Shown here: piece after piece, positions 8,220 to 35,412 of the stretch | Numbering within the stretch: the stretch's first letter is position 1 | How the letters are laid out: every line of letters begins with the position of its first letter | NCBI GenBank assembly: GCA_002683215.1 | Contig: NYSY01000149.1 | Location: 1-35,505 of the forward strand | DNA: 35,505 nt | Origin: Planctomycetaceae bacterium | GTDB lineage: Bacteria > Planctomycetota > Phycisphaerae > Phycisphaerales > SM1A02 | Reading direction: 5' to 3' | The notes under the pieces: model-generated | Told to the model about the DNA's origin: nothing | Database searches by the model: none | Seen by the model: only the letters and a program-made list of their open reading frames with translations | Translations under genes and position numbers: made by a program

Positions 8220-9470
8220 ATGGTCTGCGTGATACCTCTCCTCCATCGAACTCACCGTCCGACCCTCCGGCATCTCTCTCTGATCGCGACGATCCCGGTC
8301 CTCACGACCTCGATCGCCGTGACGGGCTGCGAGGAGGCGCGAAACGAGTTCGCGGCACCGCCGCCGCCGAAGGTCACGGCCATCCACCCGGAGATTCGGC
8401 AGTTCGAGCCGTACCGGGACATCGTCGCGACGGTGGAACCAGTGGAGACCGTCGACGTCCGGGCCCGGATCTCCGGCTTCCTCCAGTCCCGGGAATTCAC
8501 ACCGGGTGACAAGGTCGAGATCGACGAGACCCTCTTCCGGCTGGAATCCGACGAATACGACGCGAACCTCGCCATCGCCGATGCCGATCTCCGAAGCGCC
8601 GAAGCGAGCCTGCAACTGACCCGCCAGGTCCTTGCGAAGTACCAGGTCGCCTTCGACAAGGGTGCCGCGACCGAGATCGAGATCCTCGAGGCCGAGGCGA
8701 ACGTGGAGGTCGCCGCCGCGAAGGTCGAACAGGCGAAGGCACAGGTGACGCGGAGCCGGCTCGACGTGGCCTACACGACGATCAAGTCCCCGATCGCGGG
8801 CCAGATCGGCGAGGACCTCGTCAGCGTCGGCAACCTCGTCGGCCGGGGCGAGCCGACCCTGCTCGCCAGGATCACCAGCATCGATCCGATGAACGTCTAC
8901 TTCTCGCTGCCCGAGACGGCCTATCTCGAGTACCGCCGCCGCATGAGTGAAGCCGGACGAGAGAGCGATCGGCGTGGCGACTACGAATTCAACATCGTGC
9001 TTCCGAACGGCGAGGTCTACCAGCACCCCGGCGTGGTCGACTTCGCCGCTCCCGAGATCAACCGCGAGACCGGCACGGTGTCCATTCGAGGTGTGGTCCC
9101 CAACCCCGAGGACCTGCTTCGCCCCGGCCTCTTCGTCCGGGCTCGGCTCGCGGAACCGTCACGAAACAGGATCGCGCTTCCCGAATCGGCGGTACTCGTC
9201 GACATGGCGGGGGCCTACGTCTTCGTGATCGACAAGGATGACGTGGTCGCCCGACAGGGCGTCACCGTCGGTGCGAGTCTGAACGGCCTGCAGGAGATCG
9301 AAGCGGGACTCGACGAGGCCTCGATGGTGATCGTCGACGGGATCCTGCGGGCCCGACCGGGCTCGACCGTCTCTCCCGTCACGGTGTCGCTCGAAGAGGC
9401 ACTCGAACTGATCGATCCCGCGGCCGCCGCGATGCACGGATCGACCGAACCCACCAACGGGGACGCCTGA
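8220..9470 (+). CDS. RND efflux periplasmic adaptor (membrane fusion protein), lipoprotein
   Basis: A 416-residue AcrA/MexA-type adaptor that bridges an RND pump to an outer-membrane channel. The N-terminus has a long hydrophobic signal ending in SIAVTG-C, so Cys37 is probably lipidated. The half-lipoyl motif VDVRARISGFLQSREF is followed by the coiled-coil hairpin (about residues 120-175, rich in Ala/Glu/Val heptads), the second lipoyl half TTIKSPIAGQIGEDLVSVGNLV, and beta-barrel and membrane-proximal domains. The pump gene follows after 4 nt. The start ATG 8220 lacks a clear ribosome site, and translation may depend on the upstream peptidase gene. Confidence 0.93.
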   Translation: MVCVIPLLHRTHRPTLRHLSLIATIPVLTTSIAVTGCEEARNEFAAPPPPKVTAIHPEIRQFEPYRDIVATVEPVETVDVRARISGFLQSREFTPGDKVEIDETLFRLESDEYDANLAIADADLRSAEASLQLTRQVLAKYQVAFDKGAATEIEILEAEANVEVAAAKVEQAKAQVTRSRLDVAYTTIKSPIAGQIGEDLVSVGNLVGRGEPTLLARITSIDPMNVYFSLPETAYLEYRRRMSEAGRESDRRGDYEFNIVLPNGEVYQHPGVVDFAAPEINRETGTVSIRGVVPNPEDLLRPGLFVRARLAEPSRNRIALPESAVLVDMAGAYVFVIDKDDVVARQGVTVGASLNGLQEIEAGLDEASMVIVDGILRARPGSTVSPVTVSLEEALELIDPAAAAMHGSTEPTNGDA

Positions 9471-9474
9471 GCCC

Positions 9475-12400
9475 ATGCTGAGCAGCGTCTTCATACGTCG
9501 GCCGATCTTCGCCTCGGTCATCTCCATCGTCACCCTGATCATGGGTGCGATCGCCTACACCGCGCTTCCGCAGGCCCGCTACCCGAACATCGCCCCGCCG
9601 ACCATCCAGGTCTCCGCGGTGTTTCCGGGCGCCAGCGCTTCCACCATCGGGGAGACGGTCGCGACACCGCTCGAGCAGGAGATCAACGGGGTGGACGGAA
9701 TGCTCTACATGAGCAGCGTCTCCGCCAGCGACGGCTCCTGCGTCATCACGGTCTCCTTCGAGGTCGGGACCGATCTCGACACCGCGAACGTCCTGGTGCA
9801 GAACAAGGTCGCCTCCGCGATCCCCAAACTGCCCGAGGAGGTCCAGCGACAGGGCGTGATGACGAAGAAGCAGTCGACCGACATCATTCTCTACGCCTCG
9901 ATCATCGCCGACGAGGGCAGCGAGTTCGACGCGCTGTTTCTCAACAACTACGCGGAAGCCCAGCTCCGCGACGAACTGACCCGGGTCTCCGGCGTCGGCG
10001 ACATCAAGACGTTCGGCGTCGGCCGCTACAGCATGCGGGTCTGGCTGGACCCGGAGACGATCCGCTCCCTCGGCATGACCACCAACGAGGTGGTCACGGC
10101 GATCCGGGCCCAGAACGCGGAGGTCGCCGCAGGTCGGATCGGCGCCGCACCGGCCCCCGCGGGTCAGGTCTTCGACTACACGGTCACCACCACCGGGCGC
10201 CTCAACACCGCCGCCGAATTCGAGGAGATCGTGCTTCGTACCGGCAAGGACGGAACCCTCGTCAAGCTCCGGGACGTCGCCCGCATCGAACTCGGCTCCG
10301 AAAGCTACAACCTCGCGTCGTCCCTCGGTGGAAGGCCCGCCGCGACGCTGGCGATCTACCAGCTGCCCGGGGCCAACGCGATCGACGTGGCGGACGGCTG
10401 CATGGCCGCCCTGGACCGGCTGTCGAAGGCCTTCCCGGAGGGCGTCGGCTACAAGGTGGTCTACGACGGCACCCTGATCATTCGAACCAGTCTGGCCGAA
10501 CTCCAGACCACGCTGCTGATCACCATCGGACTCGTGATCCTCACGGTCTTCGTGTTCCTCCAGAACTTCCGCGCGACCTTGATTCCGGCCGTGACCATCC
10601 CGGTCTCGCTGATCGGCACCTTCGCGGTGATGCTGGCCCTCGGTTTCAGCCTCAACCTCCTCACCCTCTTCGGGCTCGTGCTGGCCGTGGGCATCGTGGT
10701 CGACGATGCGATCGTGGTGGTCGAGAACGTGACGCGGATCCTCGACGAGGAGAAACTTCCGCCTCGCGAGGCGGCGCTCAAGGCGATGAAGGAGGTCTCC
10801 GGCCCCGTGGTCGCCACCACCATCGTCCTCCTCGCGGTGTTCGTCCCGGCCGCCTTCATCGGCGGCATCACCGGCAGCCTGCTCAAGCAGTTCGCCCTCA
10901 CCATCTCCATCGCGACCGTCTTCAGCTCCATCAACGCCCTCACGCTGAGCCCCGCCCTCGCCGGCGTCCTGCTCCGTCCGACCTCGGACCGGAAGAACAT
11001 CGTCTTCCGGGGTTTCGATGCGGTCCTCGCCCGGGTCACGTCGGTGTACGCCGCGACCGTGAAGGGGCTGATCGCGATCTGGCCGCTGACCGTGGCCGCG
11101 TTTCTCGCGCTGGTGGTGGGCGCCGGCTGGATGTTCACCAAGCTTCCGACCGGCTTCGTCCCGCAGGAGGACGAAGGCTACTGCGTCATGAACATCCAGC
11201 TCCCGGACGCGGCCAGCTCCCAGCGGACCCAGCGGGTCGTGGACCGGGTCGCCGCGTCGGCCGAGGAGATCGGCGGCGTCGCGGACGTGCTGGCGATCAG
11301 CGGCTACTCGCTGCTCTCCGGCGCCGCCTCCGCGAACGCCGCGACGATCGTGGTGGTGTTCGACCCGTGGAGCGAACGAACCACCGAAGCCCTCGGGCAG
11401 ACGAACATCGTCCGCCAGTTGAACGGCATCGGCGCCGGCATCCAGGAAGGCGCCGTCGTCGCCTTCCCGGTGCCCTCCCTCCCCGGACTCGGCGCGAGTG
11501 CCGGCCTGTCCCTCGAGGTCCAGGACCGGGGCGGACTCGGCTTCGACGTCCTTCAGGGCGCGGTCGACCAGTACGTGTTCGCCGCCAACGCGCAGTCCGG
11601 CATCGGCCAGGCCTTCTCGACGTTCTCCGCGAACGTCCCGCAGGTGTTCGTCGACATCGATCGTGACAAGGTCCTCTCCCGTGGCGTGGCGCTCGAAGAC
11701 GTCTTCCAGGCCCTCGGCGCGAATCTCGGCTCGTACTACGTCAACGACTTCTCGGCCTTCGGCCGCATCTACCAGGTCCGAACCTCCGCGGAACCGAGAT
11801 TCCGATCACGCCCCGCGGACATCGAGGCGCTTGAGATTCGAAATCGCGACGGAGAGATGCTCCCCCTGTCGGCGGTGGCCACGGTGAAGCAGACATTCGG
11901 GCCGGAGAACGTCTTCCACTTCAACATCTATCCCTCCGCCCGGGTCACCGCCGGGCCCGCCCCCGGGTTCTCCGGCGGTGAAGCCCTCGACCTGATGGCT
12001 CAGATCGGCAATACCGAACTCCCGCCGGGAACCGGCTTCGCCTGGCGGGACATGGCCTACCAGATGCAGTCCTCGTCCGGCGCGATGTCCGCCATCTTCG
12101 GCCTCGCGGTGCTTCTGGTCTACCTCGTCCTCGCCGCCCAGTACGAAAGCTGGTCGCTGCCGGTCTCGGTGGTGCTCTCAGTCCCCACCGCCCTGCTCGG
12201 CGTGGTGGCGGCGTTGATGTTCGCAGGACTGCCGATCGATCTCTACGTTCAGGTCGGGATCGTGCTGCTGATCGGCCTCGCCGCCAAGAGCTCGATCCTG
12301 ATCGTGGAGTTCGCCAAGAGCAAACGCGACGAAGGCGTGGCGCCCGCCGAAGCCGCGACCATGGCGGCGAGGCTTCGTTTTCGTGCGGTGCTCATGACCG

Positions 12401-15289: not shown

Positions 15290-15958
15290 TCAGCCGCGAC
15301 GTCGGCGGGTGCCGAACAACGCAAGACCGGCCAGGGCGAGTCCGCCCGGTCCGGGGATGTTGAAGCCCTGCACGAACGCGTCCCCGACGTCGGCACCGGT
15401 GAGATCGGTGTCGGTGAGACCGAGATCCAGAAGGATCGTCGCGAAGTTCTGGGTGATCAGGAGATCACCCATGACGTCGAAGGTCTGCTCGAGCGGCGCG
15501 ATGGTGAGCGGGAGGCCGATTTGGAACAACGCACCGAGGCCCGTGCCGTCGAAGAACGTGTCGAAGACGGCGAAGGCTCCGAGGCCTTCGTCGAAGGCGA
15601 TGTCGAAGTTGCCGAGCGTGATCGAATCGTTGAACGTGATGGTCCCCCGATGGGCGATCGTGCCGGAGAACGTCGTGATGAAGTCATCGGTGTCGTACAT
15701 GAAGGTGGTCGGGTTCGAGGCGGCATCGGGGGACGTGATCGCGAAGGCGATGGAGTCCGGGCCGAGGTTGCCGGGGACGATGGTGTCGTCGCTCACGCCG
15801 GTCAGCACGAGGTCGGTGACGCTCCCGATCAACTCGAGGTCGAGCAGCACGCTTGTCTGGCCGCCCACGACTTCGACCATGTCCGCGGTGGCGGTAGTCG
15901 CAAATCCGGAGGCGGCGATGACCGCACAAAGAGAACCAATCTGCATACGCATTTTCAT
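15290..15958 (-). CDS. secreted protein with C-terminal PEP-CTERM-like sorting tail, paralog A
   Basis: A 222-residue (or 220) protein with a signal peptide (IGSLCAVIAASGFATTATA), a Thr/Asp/Leu-rich beta-type body, and a C-terminal tail of PGPGG, a hydrophobic run and RRRR. The tail resembles exosortase/PEP-CTERM sorting signals, although the PEP motif itself is replaced by PGPG. The function of the body is unknown. Three ATGs lie close together. AAAGGG is only 2 nt from the first (15958) but 8 nt from the second (15952), so translation probably starts at 15952. The middle of the gene is about 95% identical in DNA to the neighbouring paralog at 16100-16765. A strong terminator follows. Confidence 0.8.
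   Translation of the reverse strand: MKMRMQIGSLCAVIAASGFATTATADMVEVVGGQTSVLLDLELIGSVTDLVLTGVSDDTIVPGNLGPDSIAFAITSPDAASNPTTFMYDTDDFITTFSGTIAHRGTITFNDSITLGNFDIAFDEGLGAFAVFDTFFDGTGLGALFQIGLPLTIAPLEQTFDVMGDLLITQNFATILLDLGLTDTDLTGADVGDAFVQGFNIPGPGGLALAGLALFGTRRRRG
15359..15682. repeat. duplicated segment, copy 1 of 2
   Basis: This 324-bp segment matches 16175-16498 at a constant offset of 816 bp with 17 substitutions by my count and no gaps (about 95% identity). It includes a 46-nt identical block, 15421-15466 = 16237-16282. It encodes the C-terminal half of the secreted protein body but stops at the sorting tail, and similarity drops sharply on both sides. Confidence 0.9.
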
Positions 15959-16099: not shown

Positions 16100-16765
16100 T
16101 CAGCGGCGACGGCGACGGGCGCCGATCGCGGCGATCGCGGCCAACACCAGCGGGCCGGGACCGGGCACCGCCTGGTTGAAGCCCTGCACGAACGCGTCTC
16201 CGACGTCGGCGCCGGTCAGATCGGTGTCGGTGAGTCCGAGATCCAGAAGGATCGTCGCGAAGTTCTGGGTGATCAGGAGATCGCCCAAGACGTCGAAGGT
16301 CTGCTCGAGCGGTTCGATGCTGAGCGGGAGGCCGATCTGGAACAACGCGCCGAGACCCGTGCCGTCGAAGAACGTGTCGAAGACGGCGAAGGCGCCGAGG
16401 CCTTCGTCGAAGGCGATGTCGAAGTTTCCGAGCGTGATCGACTCGTTGAACGTGATGGTTCCCCGATGGGCGATCGTGCCGGAGAACGTCGCGATGAAAG
16501 AATCGCTGTCATACTGGAAGTCGCTGCCAACGGACCCCGCATAGGGCGAGGTGATCGCGAACGCGACCGAATCCGGTCCGAGGTTGCCCGGCGTGATCAC
16601 GCCGCCACTCAGCCCCGTGAGTTCCAGATCGGTCACCGAGCCGATGAGCTCGAGGTCGAGGAGAACACTGGTCTGCCCGCCGACGACGCCCACGATTTCC
16701 GCGGATGCGACGCCACCAAGGCTCAACGCTGCAATGACAGCGCCTGAAGCGGTCTTGAACTGCAT
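16100..16765 (-). CDS. secreted protein with C-terminal PEP-CTERM-like sorting tail, paralog B
   Basis: A 221-residue tandem paralog of the gene at 15290-15958, 141 nt upstream of it on the same strand. It has the same plan: signal peptide ending near ASAEI, a conserved VGGQTSVLLDLELIGSVTDL start to the body, and a tail of VPGPGPLVLAAIAAIGARRRRR. Over the stretch of about 92 residues that ends just before the tail, only about four residues differ from paralog A (D/E, T/S, A/E, M/L). The tails and signal peptides differ much more. AAAAGGG lies 9 nt before ATG 16765. No enzymatic motif is visible; a structural or surface role is a guess. Confidence 0.8.
   Translation of the reverse strand: MQFKTASGAVIAALSLGGVASAEIVGVVGGQTSVLLDLELIGSVTDLELTGLSGGVITPGNLGPDSVAFAITSPYAGSVGSDFQYDSDSFIATFSGTIAHRGTITFNESITLGNFDIAFDEGLGAFAVFDTFFDGTGLGALFQIGLPLSIEPLEQTFDVLGDLLITQNFATILLDLGLTDTDLTGADVGDAFVQGFNQAVPGPGPLVLAAIAAIGARRRRR
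16175..16498. repeat. duplicated segment, copy 2 of 2
   Basis: Partner of 15359-15682, about 95% identical without gaps. Most of the 17 differences change the protein conservatively or not at all, consistent with a recent duplication or with gene conversion under selection. Confidence 0.9.
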
Positions 16766-23732: not shown

Positions 23733-25117
23733 GCGCGAGTCGACGGACCATCGCATGGCTGCGCGGCGACCTCCGGGTCGATGACAATCCTGCGCTCGCC
23801 ACGGCCCGTGACCGCGGGACGGATGGATGCACCGCGGTGTATCTCATCGACGACGCCTTCTGGTCCCGCCATCACTGGGGGCCGGCTCGACGCGGCATGA
23901 ACCTCCGGGCGGTGGCCGCGATGCGACCGAGACTCGCCGACGCCGGCGTCGACCTTCGCGTCCTGACGACGGCCTCACAGCCCGCCGAGGATGTGATCAC
24001 GGAGGCCTGCCGTCTGCTCGGTGCGACCGAGGTTCATGCGAACCGGGAGTTCGGCGTCGATGAACTTCGGCGCGACGAACGGGTGGCGGTCCGGCTCGCC
24101 GATGCGAACGTCGATCTTCGACGTCACCACGACCAGACGATCCTCCCGGTCGAGGAGATTCGATCCGGGGCCGGCACCCCCTACACCGTGTTCACGCCGT
24201 TCAAGCGCAAGTGGCTGGCCCTGCTCGGCGAGGCGGGCATCCCCGCCCCCCTCGACCCACCTCGCACGTCCGACCCGCCCCTGGAGACCAGCCCGCCGCT
24301 CGCCGACGAGATCGATCTCGATACCGCGCTCCGTGACGTCCCCGAGTCGGCGTTCGAGGCCGGTGAAGCCGAACCTCACCGACGGCTCGAGGCGTTCCTC
24401 GACGGCCCTGTGGAGCGTTATCACGACGACCGCGACCCGCCCTCGCTCGACGGCACGAGCACGATTTCTCCGTGGCTGGCCTGCGGCTCGATCTCCCCAC
24501 GTCGAATTCTCACGGTCCTCACGCAACGTTTCGGTCCCGACCCCGCGGCCTGGGCGGAGGGGCCTTCGACCTGGTTGAGCGAACTGATCTGGCGGGAGTT
24601 CTATCGCCACGTGATGGACGGCATTCCGAAGCTCTCGATGGATCGACCACTGCACGGCTGGACCGACCGCGTCCGCTGGCGTGACGACGAGGCCGGATTC
24701 ACCGCATGGTGCGACGGACGAACCGGGATCGCGATCGTCGACGCGGGCATGCGGCAACTCGCCGCCGCGGGATGGATGCACAATCGCGTCCGCATGATCA
24801 CCGCGACCTTCCTTGCGAAACATCTGCTCATCGACTGGCGCCGAGGCGAGCGGTTCTTCATGCGGCAGCTCGTCGACGGCGACTTCCCCAGCAACAACGG
24901 CGGCTGGCAGTGGGCCGCCTCGACCGGAACCGACGCGGCGCCCTACTTCCGGATCTTCAATCCCGATCGCCAGGCCGAACGCTTCGATCCTGATGCGACC
25001 TACATCCGGCGGTGGGTTCCGGAGTACGACGGCCCCGGATCGATGAAGCCGATCGTCGACCTCAAGGCGGCACGGGTCCGTGCGATCGAGACGTTCAAGA
25101 CGGCGAAGAACGGCTGA
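23729..25117 (+). CDS. phrB: class I CPD photolyase (deoxyribodipyrimidine photo-lyase)
   Basis: A 462-residue light-driven DNA repair enzyme. It has the N-terminal antenna domain (IAWLRGDLRVDDNPAL, TPYTVFTPFKRKWL) and the C-terminal FAD domain (SELIWREFYRHVMDG, IVDAGMRQLAAAGWMHNRVR, NNGGWQWAASTGTDAAPYFR). The electron-transfer tryptophans are W317, W370 and W393, with the same 53- and 23-residue spacing as W306/W359/W382 in E. coli PhrB. Glu112 aligns with the E. coli Glu109 that contacts the methenyltetrahydrofolate antenna, which fits the folE gene in the same operon. It is not a cryptochrome DASH by these motifs. The start overlaps the previous stop (ATGA) and GGGAG lies just upstream. 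It is the last gene of the operon. Confidence 0.95.
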   Translation: MSASRRTIAWLRGDLRVDDNPALATARDRGTDGCTAVYLIDDAFWSRHHWGPARRGMNLRAVAAMRPRLADAGVDLRVLTTASQPAEDVITEACRLLGATEVHANREFGVDELRRDERVAVRLADANVDLRRHHDQTILPVEEIRSGAGTPYTVFTPFKRKWLALLGEAGIPAPLDPPRTSDPPLETSPPLADEIDLDTALRDVPESAFEAGEAEPHRRLEAFLDGPVERYHDDRDPPSLDGTSTISPWLACGSISPRRILTVLTQRFGPDPAAWAEGPSTWLSELIWREFYRHVMDGIPKLSMDRPLHGWTDRVRWRDDEAGFTAWCDGRTGIAIVDAGMRQLAAAGWMHNRVRMITATFLAKHLLIDWRRGERFFMRQLVDGDFPSNNGGWQWAASTGTDAAPYFRIFNPDRQAERFDPDATYIRRWVPEYDGPGSMKPIVDLKAARVRAIETFKTAKNG

Positions 25118-25136
25118 ACCGCCGCCGTGAAGCAAA

Positions 25137-25165
25137 GCCCCCTCCCCGCATGTCGGAGAGGGGGC
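25137..25165. terminator. bidirectional terminator between the photolyase operon and the ApbE fusion gene
   Basis: An 11-bp G/C stem (25137-25147 with 25155-25165, one G-U pair on one strand) with loop GCATGTC lies between the two convergent stop codons. On the minus strand it is followed by TTTGCTT, so it fits best as the terminator of the minus-strand gene but could serve both. Confidence 0.75.
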
Positions 25166-25192
25166 GGCTCTGTTCCGGTCCGGGTCACTCGA

Positions 25193-27049
25193 TCACGGCG
25201 ACCAGCTGCCGGCGAGGTCGTCCGGCAAATCGAACACGAGCACCCGATCGACCGCAGTGACCACCAGCCGTCGCTCGGCCTCGTCGAAGCACGCGTTGGA
25301 GATCCAGCGTTCCTCCGGCACGAGGGTGCGGATCAGGACCCCGTCCGCTGACACCACGTGCACGCCCTTGCCAGTGAGCAGCACGGCGCCGTCGGAGGCC
25401 ATCGCCATGCCGTCCGACCCCAGCGGAAAGAACATCCGACGCGGGCCGAGGGCGCCGTCCGGCCCGATGGCGAACTCGAAGGTCCGCCCCCCGTCGAGAT
25501 CGGCGACGTAGAGACGACTTCCGTCCGGTCGGCCGACGATGCCGTTGGGACGTACGAAGTCCGTCGCCGCGATCTCACAGGTCCCGTCGGGATCGAGGCG
25601 GTGCACATTCGCCGCGAGCGGCTTTCGCCCGAACGCGAACCAGGGTCTCCGATAGAAGGGATCGGTGAACCAGATCCGTCCCGACGGCCCGACCCAGAGA
25701 TCGTTGGGCCCGTTGAACGGACTCGTCCCGCCCGAGGCGAGGACCTCGACGCTCCCGTCGTCATCCCACGCCACGAGTTCGTTCTCGGCTTCCGCACACC
25801 CGAGGAGCCGACCATCGCCGGCGATCGCCAGTCCGTTCGCTCGTCGCGCACTCTCGAACATGACCGACACGCCACCGTCGGAATCGATGCGGACGATTCG
25901 GTCGCGGGGCTGATCCGTCACGAGCAGATCCCCATCCGGAAGAAACACCGGGCCCTCCGAGAATTCGAATCCCTCCACCAGCACCGCGGGCGCCTCAACC
26001 CGGGCCCACGTCGGATCGGACGCGAGCAGGATGCGTCGGGTGCGTCCGATTTCGGTCCCGGATGGAATCTCGTGAAAGCGCATCCAGCCGTCGATGGTGC
26101 CGTCCTGAAGTCGCATCGAGCCGTTGAAACCGAGGACGCTCGCACAACTTGCAAGTGCGTCGGCATCGGCACCGGGCGAGGCCCCCCCTCGGACCAGCAC
26201 CGTCACCTCTCGCCGAGTGTCCACCGGACGTCCGGTGCGGGGATCGAGAAGATGACTCAGCCGGACGACCGCCCCATCCCGTTCCACCTCGAGAAACTGC
26301 TCCACGTCGCCACTCGTCGCGATCGCGCCGTTCTCCAGCAGCACGACCTCGCCGTCATCACCCTCCACGGTCCGGATGCGGACCCGCCACCCCGCCTCAC
26401 CGGGCGGTGGAAATCCCGCGACGAGATCACCTCCGACGTCAACCAGGGCCCGAACCAGGCCGTGGGCGCGAAGCACCTCCAGCCCCGCATCCGCGGCCAT
26501 CCCCTTCCCGATCCCGCCGAAGTCGAGCCGAAGTCCGGCCGTCAGACATCGAACCGTGCCCGCCTCGACGTCCAGATCCAGTTTCTCGAGGCCGACCACG
26601 TCGTTCGCGAAGTCGATGCTCGCCGCGGACGGCGGAACGCCGTCCCGCCGTGCCGTCCGCCAGAGCAGGCTGAGCGGACCGATCGTGGGATCGAACGCGC
26701 CCCCACTCCGCCGATGCCAATGGACGGATCGCATCAGGGCCGTCGCCAGGTCCGAGGACAGCGCAACGGCTTCATCGACTCGCTCGACGAGCCGCATCGC
26801 CTCGCTCCGCGGCCGATAGTCGCTCAGCGCGTTCTCGATCTCGGCCATCCGCGCGAACGCGGCACGAGTGGCCTCGTATCCCGTCGCCTCGTCCGGCGCG
26901 TAGACCTGGATGGTGGCGGGCGTGCCCATCACCATCCGGCGATCGACCACACGCACCTCGGCCCCGACGGCCGATGCCTCCGGGACGCACCACGCCAGGC
27001 CGATCACGGTGGCGAGCATCGCCACGGCGCGAACGACCTCGATGCTCAT
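25193..27049 (-). CDS. exported ApbE-type flavin transferase fused to SMP-30/gluconolactonase-like propeller
   Basis: A 618-residue two-domain protein with an N-terminal signal peptide (VVRAVAMLATVIGLAWC). Residues ~30-350 are ApbE-like, the family that attaches FMN covalently to exported proteins: MVMGTPATIQVYA, GAFDPTIGPLSLLW, LDFGGIGKGMAAD, ALVDVGGDLVAG, RLSHLLDPRTGRPV, and the metal-site DALASC in place of the usual D-x-x-x-T. Residues ~355-615 are an SMP-30-type six-bladed propeller with all three expected metal ligands: Glu in FSEGPVFLPDG, Asn in RPNGIVGRPDG and Asp in GSDGMAMASDG. That family hydrolyses sugar lactones. ATG 27049 is chosen because it overlaps the upstream stop (ATGA). 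A GTG at 27067 is an alternative. No ApbE target protein was spotted nearby. Confidence 0.87.
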   Translation of the reverse strand: MSIEVVRAVAMLATVIGLAWCVPEASAVGAEVRVVDRRMVMGTPATIQVYAPDEATGYEATRAAFARMAEIENALSDYRPRSEAMRLVERVDEAVALSSDLATALMRSVHWHRRSGGAFDPTIGPLSLLWRTARRDGVPPSAASIDFANDVVGLEKLDLDVEAGTVRCLTAGLRLDFGGIGKGMAADAGLEVLRAHGLVRALVDVGGDLVAGFPPPGEAGWRVRIRTVEGDDGEVVLLENGAIATSGDVEQFLEVERDGAVVRLSHLLDPRTGRPVDTRREVTVLVRGGASPGADADALASCASVLGFNGSMRLQDGTIDGWMRFHEIPSGTEIGRTRRILLASDPTWARVEAPAVLVEGFEFSEGPVFLPDGDLLVTDQPRDRIVRIDSDGGVSVMFESARRANGLAIAGDGRLLGCAEAENELVAWDDDGSVEVLASGGTSPFNGPNDLWVGPSGRIWFTDPFYRRPWFAFGRKPLAANVHRLDPDGTCEIAATDFVRPNGIVGRPDGSRLYVADLDGGRTFEFAIGPDGALGPRRMFFPLGSDGMAMASDGAVLLTGKGVHVVSADGVLIRTLVPEERWISNACFDEAERRLVVTAVDRVLVFDLPDDLAGSWSP

Positions 27050-27999
27050 GGTCGGAATCGATCGCACTCTCGATACGCCTCGATGAGCCGGTCCACACCG
27101 TCCTTGCCGCCGAGACTCAGACCGTGTTCCATGCCCACGATCCCCTTGAATCCTCGCCGGTGAAGGTGGCGGAAGACGTTTCGGTAATCGATCTCGCCGG
27201 TCGTCGGCTCGCGACGACCGGGGTTGTCACCGACCTGGAAGTAGGCGATCTCGCTCCACGCCTGATCCATGTAGGGAATGAGATTTCCTTCGGTGATCTG
27301 CTGGTGGTAGAGGTCGTCGAGGATCTTGCAGCTCGGACTGCCCACTGCTTCGCAGATCATGAACGCCTGCGGAATACCGGTCAGGAACAACCCCGAGTGA
27401 TCACGGCGATTCAAGGGCTCGAGCACCATCACCAGATCATGCGGCTCGAGAATCGCCGCGCATCGCTTGAGATTCTCGATCACGTTGGCGGTCTGAAAAT
27501 CCCAGGAATCGGACAGGCCGTACCGGCCCGGCACCACGGTCATCCAACGCGCCCCACACCGCTTGGCGATCTCGACCGCCTTCGTCATCTTCGCTTCCAA
27601 CTTCCTGGTCACGGCCGGATCGCGCTTGACAAAGGTCTCAGCACCGAAATCCCCCTCGGCCACGAACACGCCCATCTCGATGTCCAGCCGACGCATCGCA
27701 TCGCCGAGTCGCTTCTGATCGGCATCCGATCGGCCCGGCATGCCGTTGTCCTCCCACGCTCGGAATCCGTGATCGTGGGCGTACTCGAGCTGATCGACGA
27801 GACCGTCCCCGCTGATCGCGTTGAACATGCCGAAGTGTGGCGCGTACTTCAGATTGAACTCCGCCGCGGGCGGCACCGCGACATCGCCGGCCGCGACCCC
27901 GGTCGCGAGTCCGGCCACCGTCGCCCCGCCCGCCGCCCCGAGAAAGGTCCGCCGTTCGATGCCACTCGGTCCGGGTGCTGCTGGTCCGGTTTCATTCAT
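27046..27999 (-). CDS. Tat-exported hydroxypyruvate isomerase-like TIM-barrel protein
   Basis: A 317-residue protein with a twin-arginine signal (IERRTFLGAAGGATVAG, R16-R17), so it is exported folded. The body is a sugar isomerase / AP-endonuclease-2-fold TIM barrel most like hydroxypyruvate isomerase: DHGFRAWEDNG, MTVVPGRYG, MVLEPLNRRDHSGLFL, DDLYHQQITEGNLI and QVGDNPGRREPTTGEIDY. Glu, Asp, His and Glu residues in these motifs are the usual metal-site ligands. The real substrate may be a larger sugar acid rather than hydroxypyruvate. AAGGAG lies 8 nt before ATG 27999. The gene lies 28 nt after a Gfo/Idh/MocA gene and overlaps the ApbE fusion gene by 4 nt, giving one transcription unit. Confidence 0.87.
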   Translation of the reverse strand: MNETGPAAPGPSGIERRTFLGAAGGATVAGLATGVAAGDVAVPPAAEFNLKYAPHFGMFNAISGDGLVDQLEYAHDHGFRAWEDNGMPGRSDADQKRLGDAMRRLDIEMGVFVAEGDFGAETFVKRDPAVTRKLEAKMTKAVEIAKRCGARWMTVVPGRYGLSDSWDFQTANVIENLKRCAAILEPHDLVMVLEPLNRRDHSGLFLTGIPQAFMICEAVGSPSCKILDDLYHQQITEGNLIPYMDQAWSEIAYFQVGDNPGRREPTTGEIDYRNVFRHLHRRGFKGIVGMEHGLSLGGKDGVDRLIEAYRECDRFRP

Positions 28000-28027: not shown

Positions 28028-29341
28028 TCATGCGTCGCCGGGACGGACGTCGTCGCTTCGGTTCATTCTGGTCTGGCCGGGAATCGGGACCGGCGGCGTC
28101 GGCATGTCGGTGAAGTCCGTGAGGTTGGGCATCAGATCCTGATCACTGTTCAGCGCATCCTCGAAGGTGATCACCTTTCCGGTGTAGGCCGCTTCGCGCC
28201 CCATGATGGCGGTGAGCGTGCTCTCCGCGATCCGCTGCCCTTCGTTGAGGTAGTCGCCGGTACCCCGGATCGACGCCTGCAGGTCCATGTGTTCCTGGAC
28301 GTAGGGACTTCGTTGCGGCCCCTTGAATCGCCAGGCGTTCGGTCCGGTCAGAACCGCACGGCCGCTGGTGAGGGTCGCCGTGCCGTCGGCACCGGTGATG
28401 ACCTCCTCCACCCGACCGTCGGTCCCCGCCTGCTGCCGACACATGCTCATCGCGAAGCGGTCGTCCGGGTATCGATACTCCAGTCCGAAGTGATCGAAGA
28501 TGTGACCGTACTCGTCCGAGGTCCGGGACTGACGCCCACCGACGCCGAAGACCTCGGTCGGCGGCGACTGGAACGCCCAGTTGATCGCGTCCAGATTGTG
28601 CACGTGCTGCTCGACGATGTGGTCCCCGGAGAGCCATGTGTAATACAGCCAGTTCCGGATCTGATTCTCGACCTCGCTCCGGTCGGGCTCGGGGGCGACG
28701 TTCCACAGGCTCCCCATGTTCCAATAGCACCGGGCCGCGAGCAGCCGTCCGAGGTCGCCGCGATGGAGCCGTTCCATCGCTTCGAGATAGCACTGTTCGT
28801 GTCGCCGCTGCGTGCCCGCGACCACCGAGAGCTTCCGATCGTTCGCGGCCGCCGCCGCCTCCATCACGGTTCGAATGCCGGTCGCGTCGACCGCAACCGG
28901 CTTCTCCATGAAGACGTGCTTGCCACCCTCCACCGCGGCGGCGAAGTGCTGAGGACGGAAACCGGGCGGGGTCGCGAGGATCACCACGTCGCAGTCGCTG
29001 CCGATCACCTTCTTGAACGCGTCGAATCCCGTGAACTGCCGGGACTCCGGAACGTCCACCCGGGCGTCGTCCCGCTTGCGGAGATTGCCGAGGCTGCTCT
29101 GGAGGCGATCGGGGAAGAGGTCGCCCATCGCGTGGATCCGCACGTCCGGGCCCGCCTCGAGCGCGTTGACCGCCGCACCCGAGCCACGCCCGCCGCACCC
29201 GATGAGACCGACGTTGATCACGTCCTCCCGGCCGAGTTTCGACCCGAGGATGGTGGGCGCCGCAGCCACGATCGAGGGCACCGTGGCGGCAAGGCCGACG
29301 GCGCGGACGAAGTCACGTCGAGCAAGATTCCGGTCATTCAT
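28028..29341 (-). CDS. Tat-exported Gfo/Idh/MocA family NAD(P)-dependent oxidoreductase (1)
   Basis: A 437-residue sugar or polyol dehydrogenase. The twin-arginine signal is LARRDFVRAVGLAATV (R8-R9). The Rossmann domain has VGLIGCGGRGSGAAVNAL and the catalytic-region motif HVFMEKPVAVDATG (the EKP Lys). The C-terminal domain includes LSGDHIVEQHVHNLDAINW, typical of the planctomycete exported branch. The substrate is unknown. GGAG lies 8 nt before the ATG. It is a paralog of the gene at 30363-31673, with a sugar-isomerase gene between the two. Such exported members, like Zymomonas glucose-fructose oxidoreductase, are thought to carry a bound nicotinamide cofactor through Tat. Confidence 0.9.
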   Translation of the reverse strand: MNDRNLARRDFVRAVGLAATVPSIVAAAPTILGSKLGREDVINVGLIGCGGRGSGAAVNALEAGPDVRIHAMGDLFPDRLQSSLGNLRKRDDARVDVPESRQFTGFDAFKKVIGSDCDVVILATPPGFRPQHFAAAVEGGKHVFMEKPVAVDATGIRTVMEAAAAANDRKLSVVAGTQRRHEQCYLEAMERLHRGDLGRLLAARCYWNMGSLWNVAPEPDRSEVENQIRNWLYYTWLSGDHIVEQHVHNLDAINWAFQSPPTEVFGVGGRQSRTSDEYGHIFDHFGLEYRYPDDRFAMSMCRQQAGTDGRVEEVITGADGTATLTSGRAVLTGPNAWRFKGPQRSPYVQEHMDLQASIRGTGDYLNEGQRIAESTLTAIMGREAAYTGKVITFEDALNSDQDLMPNLTDFTDMPTPPVPIPGQTRMNRSDDVRPGDA

Positions 29342-29401: not shown

Positions 29402-30310
29402 CTACTCGGCGGATGCCCGGATCCGGTCCATTCGCGTCGCGACATCGGTCAGCCAGGCTCGATCGCCGCCACCGATCTCCGCGGTCATCCATCCATCGAA
29501 TCCGATCTCCTGCAGGGCGGTCATCACCGCGGGCCAGTCGCAATCGCCCTCGAGCAGCAGGACGTCGAAGCCGGCCCACCGGCCCTCCTGGTCGAGCTTG
29601 GTGCGACTGTATTCCTTCACGTCGACCTTCATGACCCGCGGGCCGAGGATCCGGATCCACTGCTCCGGCCAGCCGTAGGCGACGAGATTTCCGACATCGA
29701 GGTACCAGCCGACCCGGTCGCTTTCGAACGAGTCGACGTACGCCGCGGCCTCCCGCGGACTCAGCAGGAAGTTGTTCCAGACGTTCTCGAAGGCGATGTC
29801 GATGCCCGCCGCTTCGGCGTCCGGAATCACCTTGAGCAGTTCGGCGCGGCTGAGTCGCCAGGCCTCGTCGTACGGACGATTCTTCCCGACCACCGCCGGA
29901 ACCACCAGCACCGACGACGCCCCGTAGGCCTTCGCGTCCGCGATCGCCTCCCGGATCGCCGCGACGCATTTCGCCCGAACCTCGGGATCGGCGTCATTGA
30001 GCGGGCTCTTCCAGTGTTCGCTGCAGACCACCCCGTGCACGGGAAGACCCGAGGCCTTCGACGCCGCGACCACCTCCTCCACGCTCCACGCATTGGGGCT
30101 GGGCAGTTCGACGCCGTCGTACCCGAGCGTTCGCAGCAAACGGAACTTCTCCTCGAGCGTCCCGCCCTCCTTCACCATCTCGATCTTGACGGCCTTCTTC
30201 ATCGCCGGGCTCCCCGAAGCCGCAGGAGACACGTCACCCGAGGCGGGCGACACGAGCGAGAAGCCGAGAAGGCCGAGAAGACCGGTGACGAGAATCGCGA
30301 TCGGACGCAT
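29402..30310 (-). CDS. exported sugar phosphate isomerase/epimerase-like TIM-barrel protein
   Basis: A 302-residue protein with a Sec-type signal peptide (RPIAILVTGLLGLLGFSLV). The body is the xylose-isomerase-like / AP-endonuclease-2 TIM barrel: LRTLGYDGVELPSPN, VHGVVCSEHWKSPLND, DIAFENVWNNFLLSP, VGWYLDVGNLVAYG, VKEYSRTKL and GFDGWMTAEIGGGD. The Glu, Asp, Lys/Glu and Glu positions fit the metal-bound epimerase site of L-xylulose- or tagatose-type epimerases. A phosphorylated substrate is unlikely outside the cytoplasm, so a free keto-sugar is more plausible. It is encoded between two Gfo/Idh/MocA oxidoreductases, suggesting sequential oxidation and epimerisation of one substrate. Confidence 0.85.
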   Translation of the reverse strand: MRPIAILVTGLLGLLGFSLVSPASGDVSPAASGSPAMKKAVKIEMVKEGGTLEEKFRLLRTLGYDGVELPSPNAWSVEEVVAASKASGLPVHGVVCSEHWKSPLNDADPEVRAKCVAAIREAIADAKAYGASSVLVVPAVVGKNRPYDEAWRLSRAELLKVIPDAEAAGIDIAFENVWNNFLLSPREAAAYVDSFESDRVGWYLDVGNLVAYGWPEQWIRILGPRVMKVDVKEYSRTKLDQEGRWAGFDVLLLEGDCDWPAVMTALQEIGFDGWMTAEIGGGDRAWLTDVATRMDRIRASAE

Positions 30311-30362: not shown

Positions 30363-31673
30363 TCAGCTGAACTTGTAGACGCCGGGTGCGGGGATCTCGA
30401 GAGGCGGCATCGGCCCGAACTTCGGATCTTCCGGAACGATGACCTTGTCTGAATTCATGATCTCGTCCCACGTGATCGTCCGCCCGCTGTAACCCGCCTC
30501 CCGACCGAGGATGCCCATCGCGACCGACTGGGTCATCCAGTCGCCGTCGTTCACCAGCTCACCGTCACGAATCGCCTTGAAGAGCTCGTTGTGCTCGGTC
30601 TGGTACATGTTCGGCGTACCGCCCTTGTAGCGGAAATCCTTCGACCCGTCGGCGAACTTGAGGTTCGACTGCCGTGGAGCCCAGCCGTTCACGAAACCGA
30701 TCCCCTTGGTGCCGGCGATCCAGTCGGTGTTGTCGTTCGAGCAGTTGGGAACCTGCCGGCAGGTGAGGAATCCCCGGGCTCCGTTGTCCCACTCGTAGAC
30801 CACCGCGAAGTGATCGAAGACGTCGCCCCGTTCGGCGCCCTCGCGGAGCCCGCGGCCACCGAGGGCGGTCGCCTTGGCCGGGGGGCGGTTGCCCATCGCC
30901 CAGTTCATCTTGTCGACGCTGTGCACCGCCTGCTCGACGATGATGTCGCCGGAGAGCCAGTTCAGATGCTGCCAGTTGCGGAGCTGGAAGTCCATGTCGG
31001 TCATGTCGGGCGTTCGCGCCCGGGTTCCGAGGGGGCCGGTGTGATAGGTCGAATGGACGGACTCGATCTCGCCGATCGCGCCGTCGTTGATCTCGCCGTA
31101 CACCGCACGTTCCGGCGCCGCGTAACGCCAGCAGAATCCGGACATCAACTGGGTCCCCTGGGCCTTCGCCTTCTTCGCGGTCTCCATCACCTTGCGAAGG
31201 CCGGGCATGTCCGTGGCCATCGGCTTCTCACAGAAGACGTGCTTCCCGGCGTTGACCGCCTTCTCGAGGTGGTCCGGACGGAACCCCGGAGGCGTCGCGA
31301 GAATCACCACGTCGACTCCGCTGTCCAGCACCTTGTCGATCGCATCGAAGCCGACGAATCGACGCTCGTCTCCCACCATGACCCGGGTGCCGTGCTGGTT
31401 CTTGAGGCCGTTGAAACTGTTCTTCAATCGATCCTCGTAGACGTCACCCATCGCCCAGAGCATCACGCCCGGATCCGCATTGATCGCCTGATTGGCCGCA
31501 CCGGTACCACGGCCACCACATCCGACGAGCCCGACCTTGATGCGGTCGCTCGCGGTGGCCGATCCCCAGACCGGCATGGCGAGACCGGTGGCACCGACCG
31601 CAGCCGCGGTCTTCACGAAGGCGCGACGACCCACGCCGTCATTGGAACTGGCTTCGGACTTGGAATTCTTCAT
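30363..31673 (-). CDS. Tat-exported Gfo/Idh/MocA family NAD(P)-dependent oxidoreductase (2)
   Basis: A 436-residue exported oxidoreductase, paralogous to the one at 28028-29341. Tat signal VGRRAFVKTAAAVGATG (R16-R17). Rossmann motif VGLVGCGGRGTGAANQAI, catalytic-region HVFCEKPMATDMPG, and C-terminal LSGDIIVEQAVHSVDKMNW. GGAG lies 7 nt before ATG 31673. It follows the SUMF1-fold lipoprotein by 70 nt and precedes the epimerase by 52 nt, so it is probably part of the same minus-strand unit. The substrate is unknown. The two paralogs differ enough to act on different steps or sugars. Confidence 0.9.
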   Translation of the reverse strand: MKNSKSEASSNDGVGRRAFVKTAAAVGATGLAMPVWGSATASDRIKVGLVGCGGRGTGAANQAINADPGVMLWAMGDVYEDRLKNSFNGLKNQHGTRVMVGDERRFVGFDAIDKVLDSGVDVVILATPPGFRPDHLEKAVNAGKHVFCEKPMATDMPGLRKVMETAKKAKAQGTQLMSGFCWRYAAPERAVYGEINDGAIGEIESVHSTYHTGPLGTRARTPDMTDMDFQLRNWQHLNWLSGDIIVEQAVHSVDKMNWAMGNRPPAKATALGGRGLREGAERGDVFDHFAVVYEWDNGARGFLTCRQVPNCSNDNTDWIAGTKGIGFVNGWAPRQSNLKFADGSKDFRYKGGTPNMYQTEHNELFKAIRDGELVNDGDWMTQSVAMGILGREAGYSGRTITWDEIMNSDKVIVPEDPKFGPMPPLEIPAPGVYKFS

Positions 31674-31743: not shown

Positions 31744-32688
31744 TCAAGGGTCGCAGGCCAGCCGCACGCCGACCCAGTCGTTGGATGCGAGCCACCAGGG
31801 GCTCTTGGGAATCTGCGGGTCGTCGGCGTTCCAGTCGGTGGTGAACGGGATCCGGTAGTCGAGACCGACGTCGGCGACGGGGTCGATGAATGAACCGCCC
31901 ATCACGACCCAGGTTCCATCCGGGGCGATCGCGTATTCGCTCAGGTTTCCCCAGATGTCGTGGATCCCGTTGGCGTCGACGGGCCGGGATCCGACCGCAT
32001 GCGTCGAGTACTCGGCGTTCTCCTCGAACCACCCGGACGCAAGGCGCGCGTCGGCGTCCTCGATGCCGCTCGTTTCCAGCAGGTACCGCATCTCCGCCTC
32101 GGTCGGGATCCGGATCGTCCGCCCGGTCTTGATGGACAACCACTCGACGAAACGCTCCACCGCCGCCGGACTGGCGCTCAGCAGCCCGTATCCCGCATGG
32201 CCGTAGCCACGATCCGCGAGGACGTAGGGCTTGCTCGGACGGGTCACGGCGTCGGAGGCTTCGGTGCTCTCGCCGGCATCGGTGTCGAGATTGAAGATGA
32301 ACGCGTCGTAGAGGTCCCAGGTCGCCTCCGTGGTGGCGACGTAGAAGGGAGCCCCGACGGCGGGCGCGATCGGCTGCATCGTGAGCGTGACGCTGGTCCC
32401 CGGCACCGTGACCTCGATCGGCTCCGTCGGGACGACCTTGGCGTCGCCCGAATGGGCCTGCGACTCGCCGGAGTCGTCGAGCGGCGCCTGATGGTCATGC
32501 CCCCGGGTGACGTCCGCGTCACCCCCCGGGCCGGTTTCGCATCCCACCACCGCCGAAAGACCCGCGACGGAAGCGCTGACCAACAAGGCCCGAACAGCAC
32601 GGGAACGATCCTGAAGAACGAGGTTCCGGATCACCATCGCCTTGAGCGATCTCTTCCGGCCGAACTCGACGATTCCCTCGAGATCCAT
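31744..32688 (-). CDS. SUMF1/formylglycine-generating-enzyme-fold lipoprotein, probably not a true FGE
   Basis: A 314-residue protein. A basic N-terminus and hydrophobic stretch end in a lipobox (LSAVVG-C), so it is probably a lipoprotein. A His/Asp/Ser-rich linker of about 40 residues follows. The SUMF1 fold is clear: PFYVATTEATWDLYDAF, RIPTEAEMRYLLETSG, NGIHDIWGNLSEYAI, WVVMGGSFIDPV and a final WVGVRLACDP. Only one Cys lies in the C-terminal region, so the Cys pair that oxygen-dependent FGE needs is absent. No sulfatase gene is nearby. A structural or sugar-binding role is more likely. ATG 32688 has GGAG 7 nt upstream. Confidence 0.83.
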   Translation of the reverse strand: MDLEGIVEFGRKRSLKAMVIRNLVLQDRSRAVRALLVSASVAGLSAVVGCETGPGGDADVTRGHDHQAPLDDSGESQAHSGDAKVVPTEPIEVTVPGTSVTLTMQPIAPAVGAPFYVATTEATWDLYDAFIFNLDTDAGESTEASDAVTRPSKPYVLADRGYGHAGYGLLSASPAAVERFVEWLSIKTGRTIRIPTEAEMRYLLETSGIEDADARLASGWFEENAEYSTHAVGSRPVDANGIHDIWGNLSEYAIAPDGTWVVMGGSFIDPVADVGLDYRIPFTTDWNADDPQIPKSPWWLASNDWVGVRLACDP

Positions 32689-32939: not shown

Positions 32940-35225
32940 TCAACCGGTCCAGTGACCCAGCAGGATGCCGAGATCCAAGCCGTTGACGATCCCGTCGTAG
33001 TTGAAGTCCGCCGGCGAACCGAACCGGCCCCACTCGGCCAGGAACTGCCCGAAGTCTTCACCGTCGACACGACCGTCACCATTCATGTCGCCCGGAGACT
33101 CACCGTCGCAGATCCACTCGAGGAGCTCCAGCTGATCGATCGCGGCCACGACCGTGGAATCCGACCCTTCATCCCGAGCCGTGAATCGAATGCGTACGTC
33201 CGCCGGCGCGGAGACCGGCTGAAGTTCCACGGAGCGGGACTCCCATCCATCGGTCGCGGCGGTGATGACCTCGCTCAGGGCCCATGATTCGCCACCGTCG
33301 CCGGACACCGCGACCTCGAATCGATCGTCTGCAGGAACGGTGCTCTCGAAATCCAGCCAGAGGCTGAATCGAACGGCCGGCAGGACCAGTCCGAACGGAT
33401 CGATGCCCGGGGTCACCAGAGTGGTCACCCCTCCATCCACATCTCCGGAACCATCTCCGGTCATGAAGCAATCACCGTCGCCCCCCGAGTCGGCCGTCGG
33501 CCCGAAATCATCGAGTCGGCTGGGCGAACGACTCTGCCAGACCCCGGCGGCTGCCGTATCGGCCGGCATCCCGAGCATCCAGCCGGTCGGATCGTCGCCA
33601 TCGAATCGATCCGCCAGCACTTCCGTGTCGGCATACGTCGCGGCGTAGGGGCCGGATGGGTCGGAAAACGACTCCCCGGTCGCGGACTGGGCATTGAAAC
33701 TGAAGGCAATCTGGTCCGGACAGTCGACCGATGCCGGGAAGGCGATCCGGAATCGTCCGGGCTCGATATCCGCCTCTCCCTGCACGAAGCCCGCGTCCCC
33801 GGATTCCATTTCGTATTCCATGTACATCGACACGGCATCGAACGACTCGACATCCACCACGGCTTCGAAGCCATCCGGACCGATCCGATCCGGGAGCCCG
33901 TTCACGAATCGGATGGCCGGTTCGTTCGCGACAGGCTCGTCCAGTCTCAGGACGAAGAGCCCGCGCTGCATGTCACTGGCCAGGATGGTCCCCGAGGGCA
34001 GAAAGGGATCGACGCCCCAGCACCCCTGATATCCGGGATCGCCGGACTCGGGAAAGGTATCGAAGAAGGCGACTTCCTCGAGTCCGTTTCCATCGGCTTC
34101 GAGGACACGCACACCATCCTTGTAGTTCGCGGCGAAGAGCAGGTCGCCTCGGACGAAGAGATTGTGGTTCGTCGCTGCTTGCCCGTTGGCCTGCTGTTCG
34201 CCCAGAAATGCGTTGTCAAGATCCGAAATATCGATGCACTGCCACGTCGAGTTGAGCGCTGGCGACGTCTCGTCGTTCGAATAAAGCCATCGAAGGTCTT
34301 CACTCTCCCAGGACTGATGGCTGTAGCCACCCTCATCCCAGGTGATTCTCCCAAGCGTCTCGCCCTGTGGATTGAAATCGGCACGCGTACCGAAGCTGAC
34401 GATGGAAAGCCCCGGATCGACATAGCCTTGATTAAAACCGTCGTTGAGAAAACCAATGATCTCACCACGGTGATCCGGATCGGGACCATCCTGCGGATAG
34501 ACGATGATCCGGGCGTCGTGTACGAATCGATCCGTACGAGATCCGAGAAACTCGATCTCCACGGGGTCTTCGAGGACGTCGTAGAACCGCACGGTCTGAC
34601 CGACTCGGATCAAGAGTCCCGCCTCGGGACACGCCACGATGTTGTGAGCCTTGCCGCCCGCAGCCATCCCCTCGTAGATCACGGTTCCCGAGTCGATCTC
34701 GGACATGTCGAAAACGAGAATCCCTCCGCCTTCACCATCGACATAGGCGTACTCGCCGATGACCTTGACATCACCCCAGAGTGACGAGGTCGAACCACGT
34801 TCGTGGATGTGAACCACCACCGGATCGAACGGATCGGTGACCTCGACCCACGCGACCGATTCCATCGTGGTCATGATGCCGTATTCACGTCCTGCAGATG
34901 ACACGTAGTGCCAGAGATCAGCGCCGTTTCCAACCCCCCCGAGCACGTTCACCGGAATCTGAGCGCAGAAGATGACTCCATCTCCGCTGTCATCCCACTG
35001 CGTGTCGAAGCCAATCCCGCCACCGCGAACGATCTCGCCGTGGATCGAGGGATCCGGACGACCCTTCGGATCGCCGTCGTGCGCCATGACTTGACCTGCG
35101 AAGCAGAATCCTGCCGCCAAGAGACCAGCCGTCCGGGGCTTCCACCCGACCAACGCTTTGGCGATGGCGGAGAACCTCGGCCGAGGGAATTGCGAGAACT
35201 CGGGACGATTGGCGTATTCAAACAT
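32940..35225 (-). CDS. secreted choice-of-anchor-B-like (LVIVD-repeat) protein with jelly-roll domain and dockerin tail
   Basis: A 761-residue secreted protein. ATG 35225 is preferred over an in-frame start at 35303 because AAGG lies 5 nt upstream and the earlier start would translate the TTG-repeat leader. The signal region is PRTAGLLAAGFCFAGQVMA. Residues ~40-430 form a propeller of LVIVD-type repeats (WGDVKVIGEYAYVDGEGGGI, NHNLFVRGDLLFAANYKDGV, GTILASDMQRGLFVLRL), as in the choice-of-anchor B family. A beta-sandwich domain follows (about residues 540-700; ADDRFEVAVSGDGGESW). The dockerin-like end has DMNGDGRVDGED and DFNYDGIVNGLD. The cellular role is unknown; cell-surface display or adhesion is the usual guess. 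Confidence 0.82.
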   Translation of the reverse strand: MFEYANRPEFSQFPRPRFSAIAKALVGWKPRTAGLLAAGFCFAGQVMAHDGDPKGRPDPSIHGEIVRGGGIGFDTQWDDSGDGVIFCAQIPVNVLGGVGNGADLWHYVSSAGREYGIMTTMESVAWVEVTDPFDPVVVHIHERGSTSSLWGDVKVIGEYAYVDGEGGGILVFDMSEIDSGTVIYEGMAAGGKAHNIVACPEAGLLIRVGQTVRFYDVLEDPVEIEFLGSRTDRFVHDARIIVYPQDGPDPDHRGEIIGFLNDGFNQGYVDPGLSIVSFGTRADFNPQGETLGRITWDEGGYSHQSWESEDLRWLYSNDETSPALNSTWQCIDISDLDNAFLGEQQANGQAATNHNLFVRGDLLFAANYKDGVRVLEADGNGLEEVAFFDTFPESGDPGYQGCWGVDPFLPSGTILASDMQRGLFVLRLDEPVANEPAIRFVNGLPDRIGPDGFEAVVDVESFDAVSMYMEYEMESGDAGFVQGEADIEPGRFRIAFPASVDCPDQIAFSFNAQSATGESFSDPSGPYAATYADTEVLADRFDGDDPTGWMLGMPADTAAAGVWQSRSPSRLDDFGPTADSGGDGDCFMTGDGSGDVDGGVTTLVTPGIDPFGLVLPAVRFSLWLDFESTVPADDRFEVAVSGDGGESWALSEVITAATDGWESRSVELQPVSAPADVRIRFTARDEGSDSTVVAAIDQLELLEWICDGESPGDMNGDGRVDGEDFGQFLAEWGRFGSPADFNYDGIVNGLDLGILLGHWTG

Positions 35226-35412
35226 ATTTGCCTTCTCACCACGCCCCTGAGCGGGAAGCGACAACAACAACAACAACAAACCACCGCTCTTATCGCCCAT
35301 CACAACTTACACGGTCCTATTACAGAATCAACAAAGAAGTCTCCATCTTAGGTCGCAGGTGGGATTGGGCGCTTGGCGCCGGGATCCCATCAAACGGCTG
35401 TAGACCCCCGAC
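35226..35412. other. A/T-richer intergenic region upstream of the choice-of-anchor-B-like gene
   Basis: 187 bp between two minus-strand dockerin genes. The region holds the CAA repeat and an A/T-rich stretch (35300-35350) that probably carries the promoter, but no clean -35/-10 pair could be fixed. No gene was found. Confidence 0.4.
35262..35279. repeat. (CAA)6 trinucleotide microsatellite in the leader of the choice-of-anchor-B-like gene
   Basis: Six perfect CAA units (TTG on the coding strand) lie 37-54 nt upstream of the ATG at 35225. Such perfect low-GC repeats are unusual in this high-GC window. Confidence 0.9.

Follow-up and report, generated by a model that had tools for sequence, protein, structure and literature searches.

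The window analysed here, the whole 35,505-nucleotide stretch of contig NYSY01000149.1 from a Planctomycetaceae bacterium (assembly GCA_002683215.1), contains a gene that, judging from its sequence and a structural model, encodes one exported protein with two domains, an ApbE domain (FAD:protein FMN transferase) and a C-terminal SMP-30/gluconolactonase (SGL) propeller. The fusion, made by a small group of marine planctomycetes from two enzymes that are usually separate, is a real, narrowly distributed and conserved novelty of architecture, and its product most likely is a two-activity protein that serves extracytoplasmic sugar oxidation and whose ApbE is an orphan. The earlier note had suggested that the fusion may couple flavinylation or flavin use to extracytoplasmic sugar oxidation; a coupling of flavinylation to lactone hydrolysis is plausible. 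We also report a new observation on the wider ApbE clade: across Planctomycetota and in one opitutian, its unfused members adjoin a gene for an FGE-domain protein and genes for exported Gfo/Idh/MocA dehydrogenases.

The fusion gene and its product

The gene (25193..27067, minus strand) is one uninterrupted open reading frame, supported by Pfam matches, by full-length relatives and by an AlphaFold2 model. Its product has 624 amino acids if translation begins at the GTG at 27067, or 618 if it begins at the ATG at 27049, which overlaps the stop codon of the upstream gene as ATGA. The start site is unsettled because several relatives lack a methionine at the ATG position and begin at the upstream site. 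The sequence reads as a Sec-type signal peptide at residues about 7–33 (26969..27049, minus strand), which ends in an AxA-like ASA and has no lipobox; the model predicts a helix at residues 9–25 and has low confidence at 27–33. The ApbE domain occupies residues 47–321 (26105..26929, minus strand; PF02424, E = 1.4e-59, 202 bits against a curated cut-off of 25.6; also a fold match), and the six-bladed propeller residues 369–605 (25253..25963, minus strand; PF08450, E = 2.7e-27, 96 bits against a curated cut-off of 26.3; also aligned to 3e5z and 3dr2). The single reading frame and the two Pfam matches, both far above their cut-offs, bear out the assignment of both domains to one chain, for which the model has a mean pLDDT of 92.5 and a pTM of 0.89. 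The junction, residues about 336–362 (25982..26062, minus strand), includes a loop of variable length and is in frame in all eight species with a full-length copy.

Conservation and distribution of the fusion

The full fusion is intact in seven other metagenome-assembled species (loci L002–L008, 55–94% identity, independent assemblies), six of them in the genus of the window; L007 appears to be genome G494 of a neighbouring genus. In a ninth species, G495 from the genus of L007, the beginning of the contig truncates the gene, of which the same linker and propeller are present. Within the window's genus the fusion is present in seven of the eight genomes, and the remaining one (G002) has no ApbE whatever. 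A search for the same architecture in planctomycetes, proposed in the earlier note, located it in only two neighbouring genera of Phycisphaerales among 181 genomes of the family, and in none of 392 genomes sampled across the phylum besides the window's own; elsewhere in that sample ApbE and SGL are separate. The alternative foreseen in that note, homologues that are always separate, is contradicted by this recurrence. No paper describing an ApbE–SMP-30 fusion was found in a literature search of partial coverage.

Rarity of the architecture is the one point that would speak for an assembly artefact or a frameshift having joined two genes. The same full-length protein in seven independently assembled genomes (eight species with the window) rules out a frameshift at 25975–26050, where the earlier note had seen a possible weak point. 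The dN/dS values of the ApbE and SGL halves, 0.08–0.28, indicate purifying selection on both; the junction keeps its reading frame, with dN/dS under 0.5 in each of the six pairs compared. Purifying selection across the junction and the confident model leave an artefactual origin extremely improbable.

Several irregularities were seen in the DNA of these loci. Compared with L002, the window shows a far higher identity at 25105–25905 and 27105–27505 than the surrounding 0.75–0.85, and similar patches occur at 9400–9600 and 7600–7800 of L008 compared with L006. The patches reach 0.97 and include the propeller half, a pattern suggestive of either mixed assemblies or recent interspecies recombination. 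In L009 (NZFT01000056.1, the MED708 MAG), about 143 residues from the N-terminus of the fusion are encoded a second time near the end of a contig (positions 8001–8630), with unrelated sequence beyond them; this is probably an assembly chimera.

Active sites of the two halves

The ApbE half of the model matches Treponema pallidum Ftp (4xdt) with Z 35.3 and an rmsd of 2.2 over 301 residues, and also matches other solved ApbEs. The ApbE catalytic positions D182, K188, S252, H272 and D303 are invariant in all eight fusions, so that this half looks as intact as had been supposed. In our own alignment, which uses the published FmnB numbering, the catalytic residues Asp301, Ser257, His273 and Lys190 of FmnB (PMC8906456) correspond to D303, S252, H272 and K188 of the fusion. 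The threonine of the metal site is replaced by Ser307 in 8/8 fusions, which had been read as unusual and a possible sign of repurposing. This reading did not hold: among 59 ApbEs of the same clade the metal site has Ser in 31 and Thr in 27, and serine is thus ordinary there.

A less obvious deviation is Gln257, present in all eight fusions and in 55 of the 59 clade rows, where FmnB has Arg262; the neighbouring tyrosine is lost as well. Replacement of Arg262 by alanine inactivates FmnB (PMC8906456). According to a review, V. cholerae ApbE also lacks an equivalent of Arg262, so Gln257 does not show a loss of function and this arginine does not define the ApbE family. Glutamine is also found at this position in two FMN_bind-associated ApbEs. 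Residue 84 is a tyrosine in seven of the eight fusions, and ApbEs with tyrosine at the equivalent position are reported to bind FAD, not to hydrolyse it (PMC4767422).

The propeller half of the model fits the gluconolactonase structures 3e5z (Z 34.6) and XC5397 (3dr2, Z 34.5). When aligned to these structures, the ligand positions E371, N455, N508 and D552 are conserved without exception in 8/8 fusions, in agreement with the earlier reading of an intact metal site. No DxxxGA[ST] site was found in the propeller.

The operon

The fusion gene ends an operon of seven genes, all on the minus strand. It begins with a choice-of-anchor B family protein with a dockerin-like C-terminus (32940..35303; TIGR04312, 198 bits against a cut-off of 100), followed by an FGE-domain (PF03781-like) lipoprotein (31744..32688), identified by profile matches of its orthologues and by its neighbourhoods. 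The orthologues match PF03781 with a best E of 2e-24, the copy in the window is below the cut-off, and no cysteine is conserved among 42 relatives. Next come Gfo1 (30363..31673; PF01408, PF22725, PF02894), a Gfo/Idh/MocA dehydrogenase whose nearest solved relatives are inositol dehydrogenases, aldose-aldose oxidoreductase and GFOR; TIM1 (29402..30310; PF01261), an exported xylose-isomerase-like TIM barrel with a Sec-type signal recognized by eye; Gfo2 (28028..29341; PF01408, PF22725), a second Gfo/Idh/MocA dehydrogenase; and TIM2 (27046..27999; PF01261; in NCBIfam, TAT signal model and TIGR03234 below cut-off), a TAT-exported xylose-isomerase-like TIM barrel that resembles hydroxypyruvate isomerase. 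Gfo1, Gfo2 and TIM2 have TAT-type signals, read from the sequence and, for TIM2, from a profile. The gene order is the same in all eight loci within the reach of their contigs (that of L005 starts at TIM2), which upholds the earlier reading that the fusion closes an operon encoding exported sugar oxidoreductases.

The Gfo proteins match the NCBIfam models for glycoside 3-dehydrogenase, inositol dehydrogenase and others, all far below cut-off. Their relatives among solved structures are of two kinds, lactone-forming (aldose-aldose oxidoreductase, GFOR) and ketone-forming (DgpA, 3-dehydrogenases), and the named families nearest to them likewise comprise ketone-producing glycoside 3-dehydrogenases beside lactone-forming GFOR and aldose-aldose oxidoreductase. 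The Gfo enzymes may make lactones, as the earlier note had supposed, or ketones. Elsewhere in the window, 15290–15958 and 16100–16765 encode adjacent, very similar paralogous secreted proteins with PEP-CTERM-like tails (GLAL..FGTRRRR).

The wider ApbE clade

Unfused ApbEs of the same clade have comparable neighbourhoods, usually on the strand opposite to the FGE and Gfo genes. Within 9 kb of 54 ApbE loci, Gfo genes were found at 44 and FGE genes at 40, and in a phylum-wide sample FGE lay within 1.5 kb of 18 of 19 ApbE loci; these loci are the best matches to the ApbE half of the fusion, and the counts are not a share of all planctomycete ApbEs. Control loci totalling 509 kb gave no FGE match and one Gfo match. 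The FGE-domain gene is the partner most often beside ApbE in the clade. Such an arrangement, often with exported Gfo/Idh/MocA genes, was seen in loci L172–L196, L082–L121, L131–L141 and L032, the last being the single opitutian locus seen, with both FGE and Gfo. The grouping looks like an undescribed conserved unit of Planctomycetota and one opitutian.

In the phylogenetic tree, 59 cluster-type ApbE rows are split from 10 rows that contain all eight FMN_bind-neighbouring ApbEs; support for this split is moderate (92/92), and the smaller group includes the long-branch row L138, whose place is unsure. The sequences thus place the ApbE half in a planctomycete clade that travels with the FGE lipoprotein and Gfo/Idh/MocA genes, apart from Rnf/FMN_bind-associated ApbEs. 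The eight fusions are grouped in a single clade (100/96) whose sister is the unfused ApbE of L082 (genome G044), a topology indicating that SGL became attached to ApbE a single time, before the fused species diverged. The L082 ApbE closes the same operon, with the same overlap with the upstream gene. G044 shares its genus with two fused species, and its ApbE (L082, 7387–8397) sits on a long branch and has an altered DPxTG motif, DARTLSP replacing DPRTG, so that loss of SGL is as likely here as an ancestral unfused state. This ApbE may be decaying.

Search for a flavin acceptor

FMN_bind, DUF2271, DUF3570 and NqrB/RnfD were all absent from the eight genomes of the window's genus, some of which are incomplete (four reach 90% completeness or more, with contamination no higher than 5%); the search covered these known types, and acceptors of another type would escape it. 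The ApbE of the fusion is an orphan in this sense. FMN_bind was found in 11 of 101 relatives, most of these 11 with a canonical GAT site such as DAITGAT, which provides a positive control for the method. No conserved DxxxGA[ST] was found in the proteins of the operon or of the related clusters, and the canonical motif was thus discarded as a lead to an acceptor within the operon. A scan for the flavinylation motif, akin to the one recommended in the earlier note, gave no excess: genome-wide DxxxGAT counts in three genomes were close to those of a reversed-pattern control, conserved instances fell in GH18-like and exosortase-like proteins, and the lead was dropped. Clustering of the reading frames near the 54 ApbEs returned ApbE, Gfo, FGE, TIM, choice-of-anchor B, a minority Msr and apparent antisense frames; no hidden third constant neighbour emerged as a candidate acceptor.

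An exosortase-like membrane protein in L147 and L167 carries a conserved DPVTGAT in its C-terminal part that fits the flavinylation motif, probably by chance.

Possible function

The explanation that we tentatively prefer, at slightly less than an even chance, joins exported sugar oxidation, hydrolysis by the propeller and flavinylation by ApbE of an exported non-canonical acceptor. The operon would oxidize a sugar or glycoside outside the cytoplasm, and the propeller would hydrolyse a lactone or similar ester arising in the pathway. The ApbE half would take FMN from FAD and put it on an exported protein that carries electrons away from the sugar pathway. This acceptor would lie outside the known domains and might be a member of the cluster with a non-canonical site, the FGE lipoprotein being the most constant partner among such candidates. 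The fusion itself would mainly bind both activities to one operon and one place. In its favour are the two strong Pfam domains on one frame, the recurrence of the fusion under purifying selection, the fold matches and invariant residues, the constant gene order, the place of the ApbE half in the clade with FGE and Gfo neighbours, and a solved precedent, DrSOD, for SGL fused to an exported redox enzyme. Against this explanation stand the lack of a known acceptor domain in the genus, the lack of a conserved DxxxGA[ST], genome-wide DxxxGAT counts near the control level and the glutamine in place of an arginine essential in FmnB. A propeller beside a sugar dehydrogenase, moreover, is not necessarily a sugar lactonase, and lactone chemistry cannot be deduced from the operon, as illustrated by DrSOD of Deinococcus, a structurally solved fusion of a Cu/Zn superoxide dismutase to a propeller lactonase, whose propeller hydrolysed 2-coumaranone but not gluconolactone despite an adjoining glucose dehydrogenase gene (PMC12362111).

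DrSOD, a comparable fusion with independent activities, also lends weight to the less probable view that the two halves are independent enzymes on one chain, the propeller having gained an export signal and a place in the operon with no direct coupling to ApbE. The same view would account for the unfused clusters of relatives, which lack an SGL gene (with a loose exception in L132, about 8 kb off), for the separation of ApbE and SGL in all other sampled planctomycetes, and for the unfused L082 ApbE at the end of the same operon. It fits less well with a chain whose frame has been preserved in eight or more species, at identities as low as 55%, with the confident overall arrangement of the model, and with the existence of one unfused species, by which splitting or loss is possible but rare. 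We regard as still less probable a repurposed ApbE half that flavinylates nothing and is either an FAD pyrophosphatase or uses a different ADP-containing nucleotide, NAD(P) for example, an activity that would be tied to the NAD-dependent exported Gfo dehydrogenases. The NAD-type dehydrogenases constantly nearby, the genus devoid of known acceptor domains and the clade-specific Gln257 with loss of the neighbouring tyrosine point in this direction; retention of all other catalytic positions, Tyr84 of the FAD-binding class and the occurrence of Gln257 in FMN_bind-associated ApbEs point away from it.

A more specific form of exported sugar oxidation with flavinylation, which we consider rather unlikely as it stands, is a planctomycete system in which the dedicated ApbE clade modifies the FGE lipoprotein or the Gfo/Idh/MocA enzymes and the fusion adds lactone hydrolysis. 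If true, flavinylation, or another nucleotide modification, would give NAD-type Gfo/Idh/MocA enzymes a flavin route for electrons.

In a published survey, 4% of the genomes examined had apbE without any acceptor of a type known at the time, and the authors concluded that further acceptors remain to be identified (PMC8238504). The clade described here offers a concrete case: its orphan ApbEs are widespread and have only two very constant partners, the FGE lipoprotein and the exported Gfo/Idh/MocA proteins, which narrows the search for the missing acceptor to very few candidates. Compared with gene order alone, the fusion is a more direct link between flavin transfer and sugar oxidation outside the cytoplasm.

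Comparison with known systems

Exported or related dehydrogenases like those of the operon occur in the Gfo/Idh/MocA glycoside-oxidation modules (BT_2158-type glycoside 3-dehydrogenase, DgpA, GFOR). The operon likewise has its Gfo dehydrogenases beside TIM-barrel isomerase-like proteins, but its NCBIfam matches to these modules are far below cut-offs, and we know of no description of ApbE or an FGE lipoprotein as a part of them.

With ApbE/Ftp/FmnB proteins (T. pallidum 4xdt, L. monocytogenes 7esa, V. cholerae 6nxi) the fusion shares the fold (Z 32–35), the catalytic Asp, Ser, His and Lys, the metal-site Asp and export. It differs from them in its C-terminal propeller, in Ser for Thr and Gln for Arg262 of FmnB, in belonging to a genus without an FMN_bind, DUF2271, DUF3570 or NqrB/RnfD acceptor, and in having sugar dehydrogenases as neighbours in place of electron-transfer subunits. 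Like SMP-30 propellers (3e5z; XC5397, 3dr2; RPA3624, 8djf), the C-terminal half has six blades (Z 33–35) and E/N/N/D ligands, and like XC5397 it is exported; in contrast to them, it is not free-standing.

ApbE also shares a chain with a second domain in ApbE–DUF2271 and ApbE–fumarate reductase fusions. The second domain of our fusion, unlike theirs, is an SMP-30 propeller without DxxxGA[ST], and to our knowledge this propeller is not a known flavin acceptor. In the ApbE–DUF2271 proteins and the trypanosomatid ApbE–fumarate reductase fusions the flavin acceptor is the second domain itself or a part of it (PMC8238504, PMC12052999).

DrSOD, like the fusion, combines an exported redox-type enzyme with a C-terminal SGL propeller in a narrow taxonomic range (DrSOD is restricted to its genus), and in both the gene lies downstream of one for a sugar dehydrogenase (glucose dehydrogenase in DrSOD) and shows an ATGA overlap. 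The two differ in the partner of the propeller, a superoxide dismutase in DrSOD and ApbE in the fusion.
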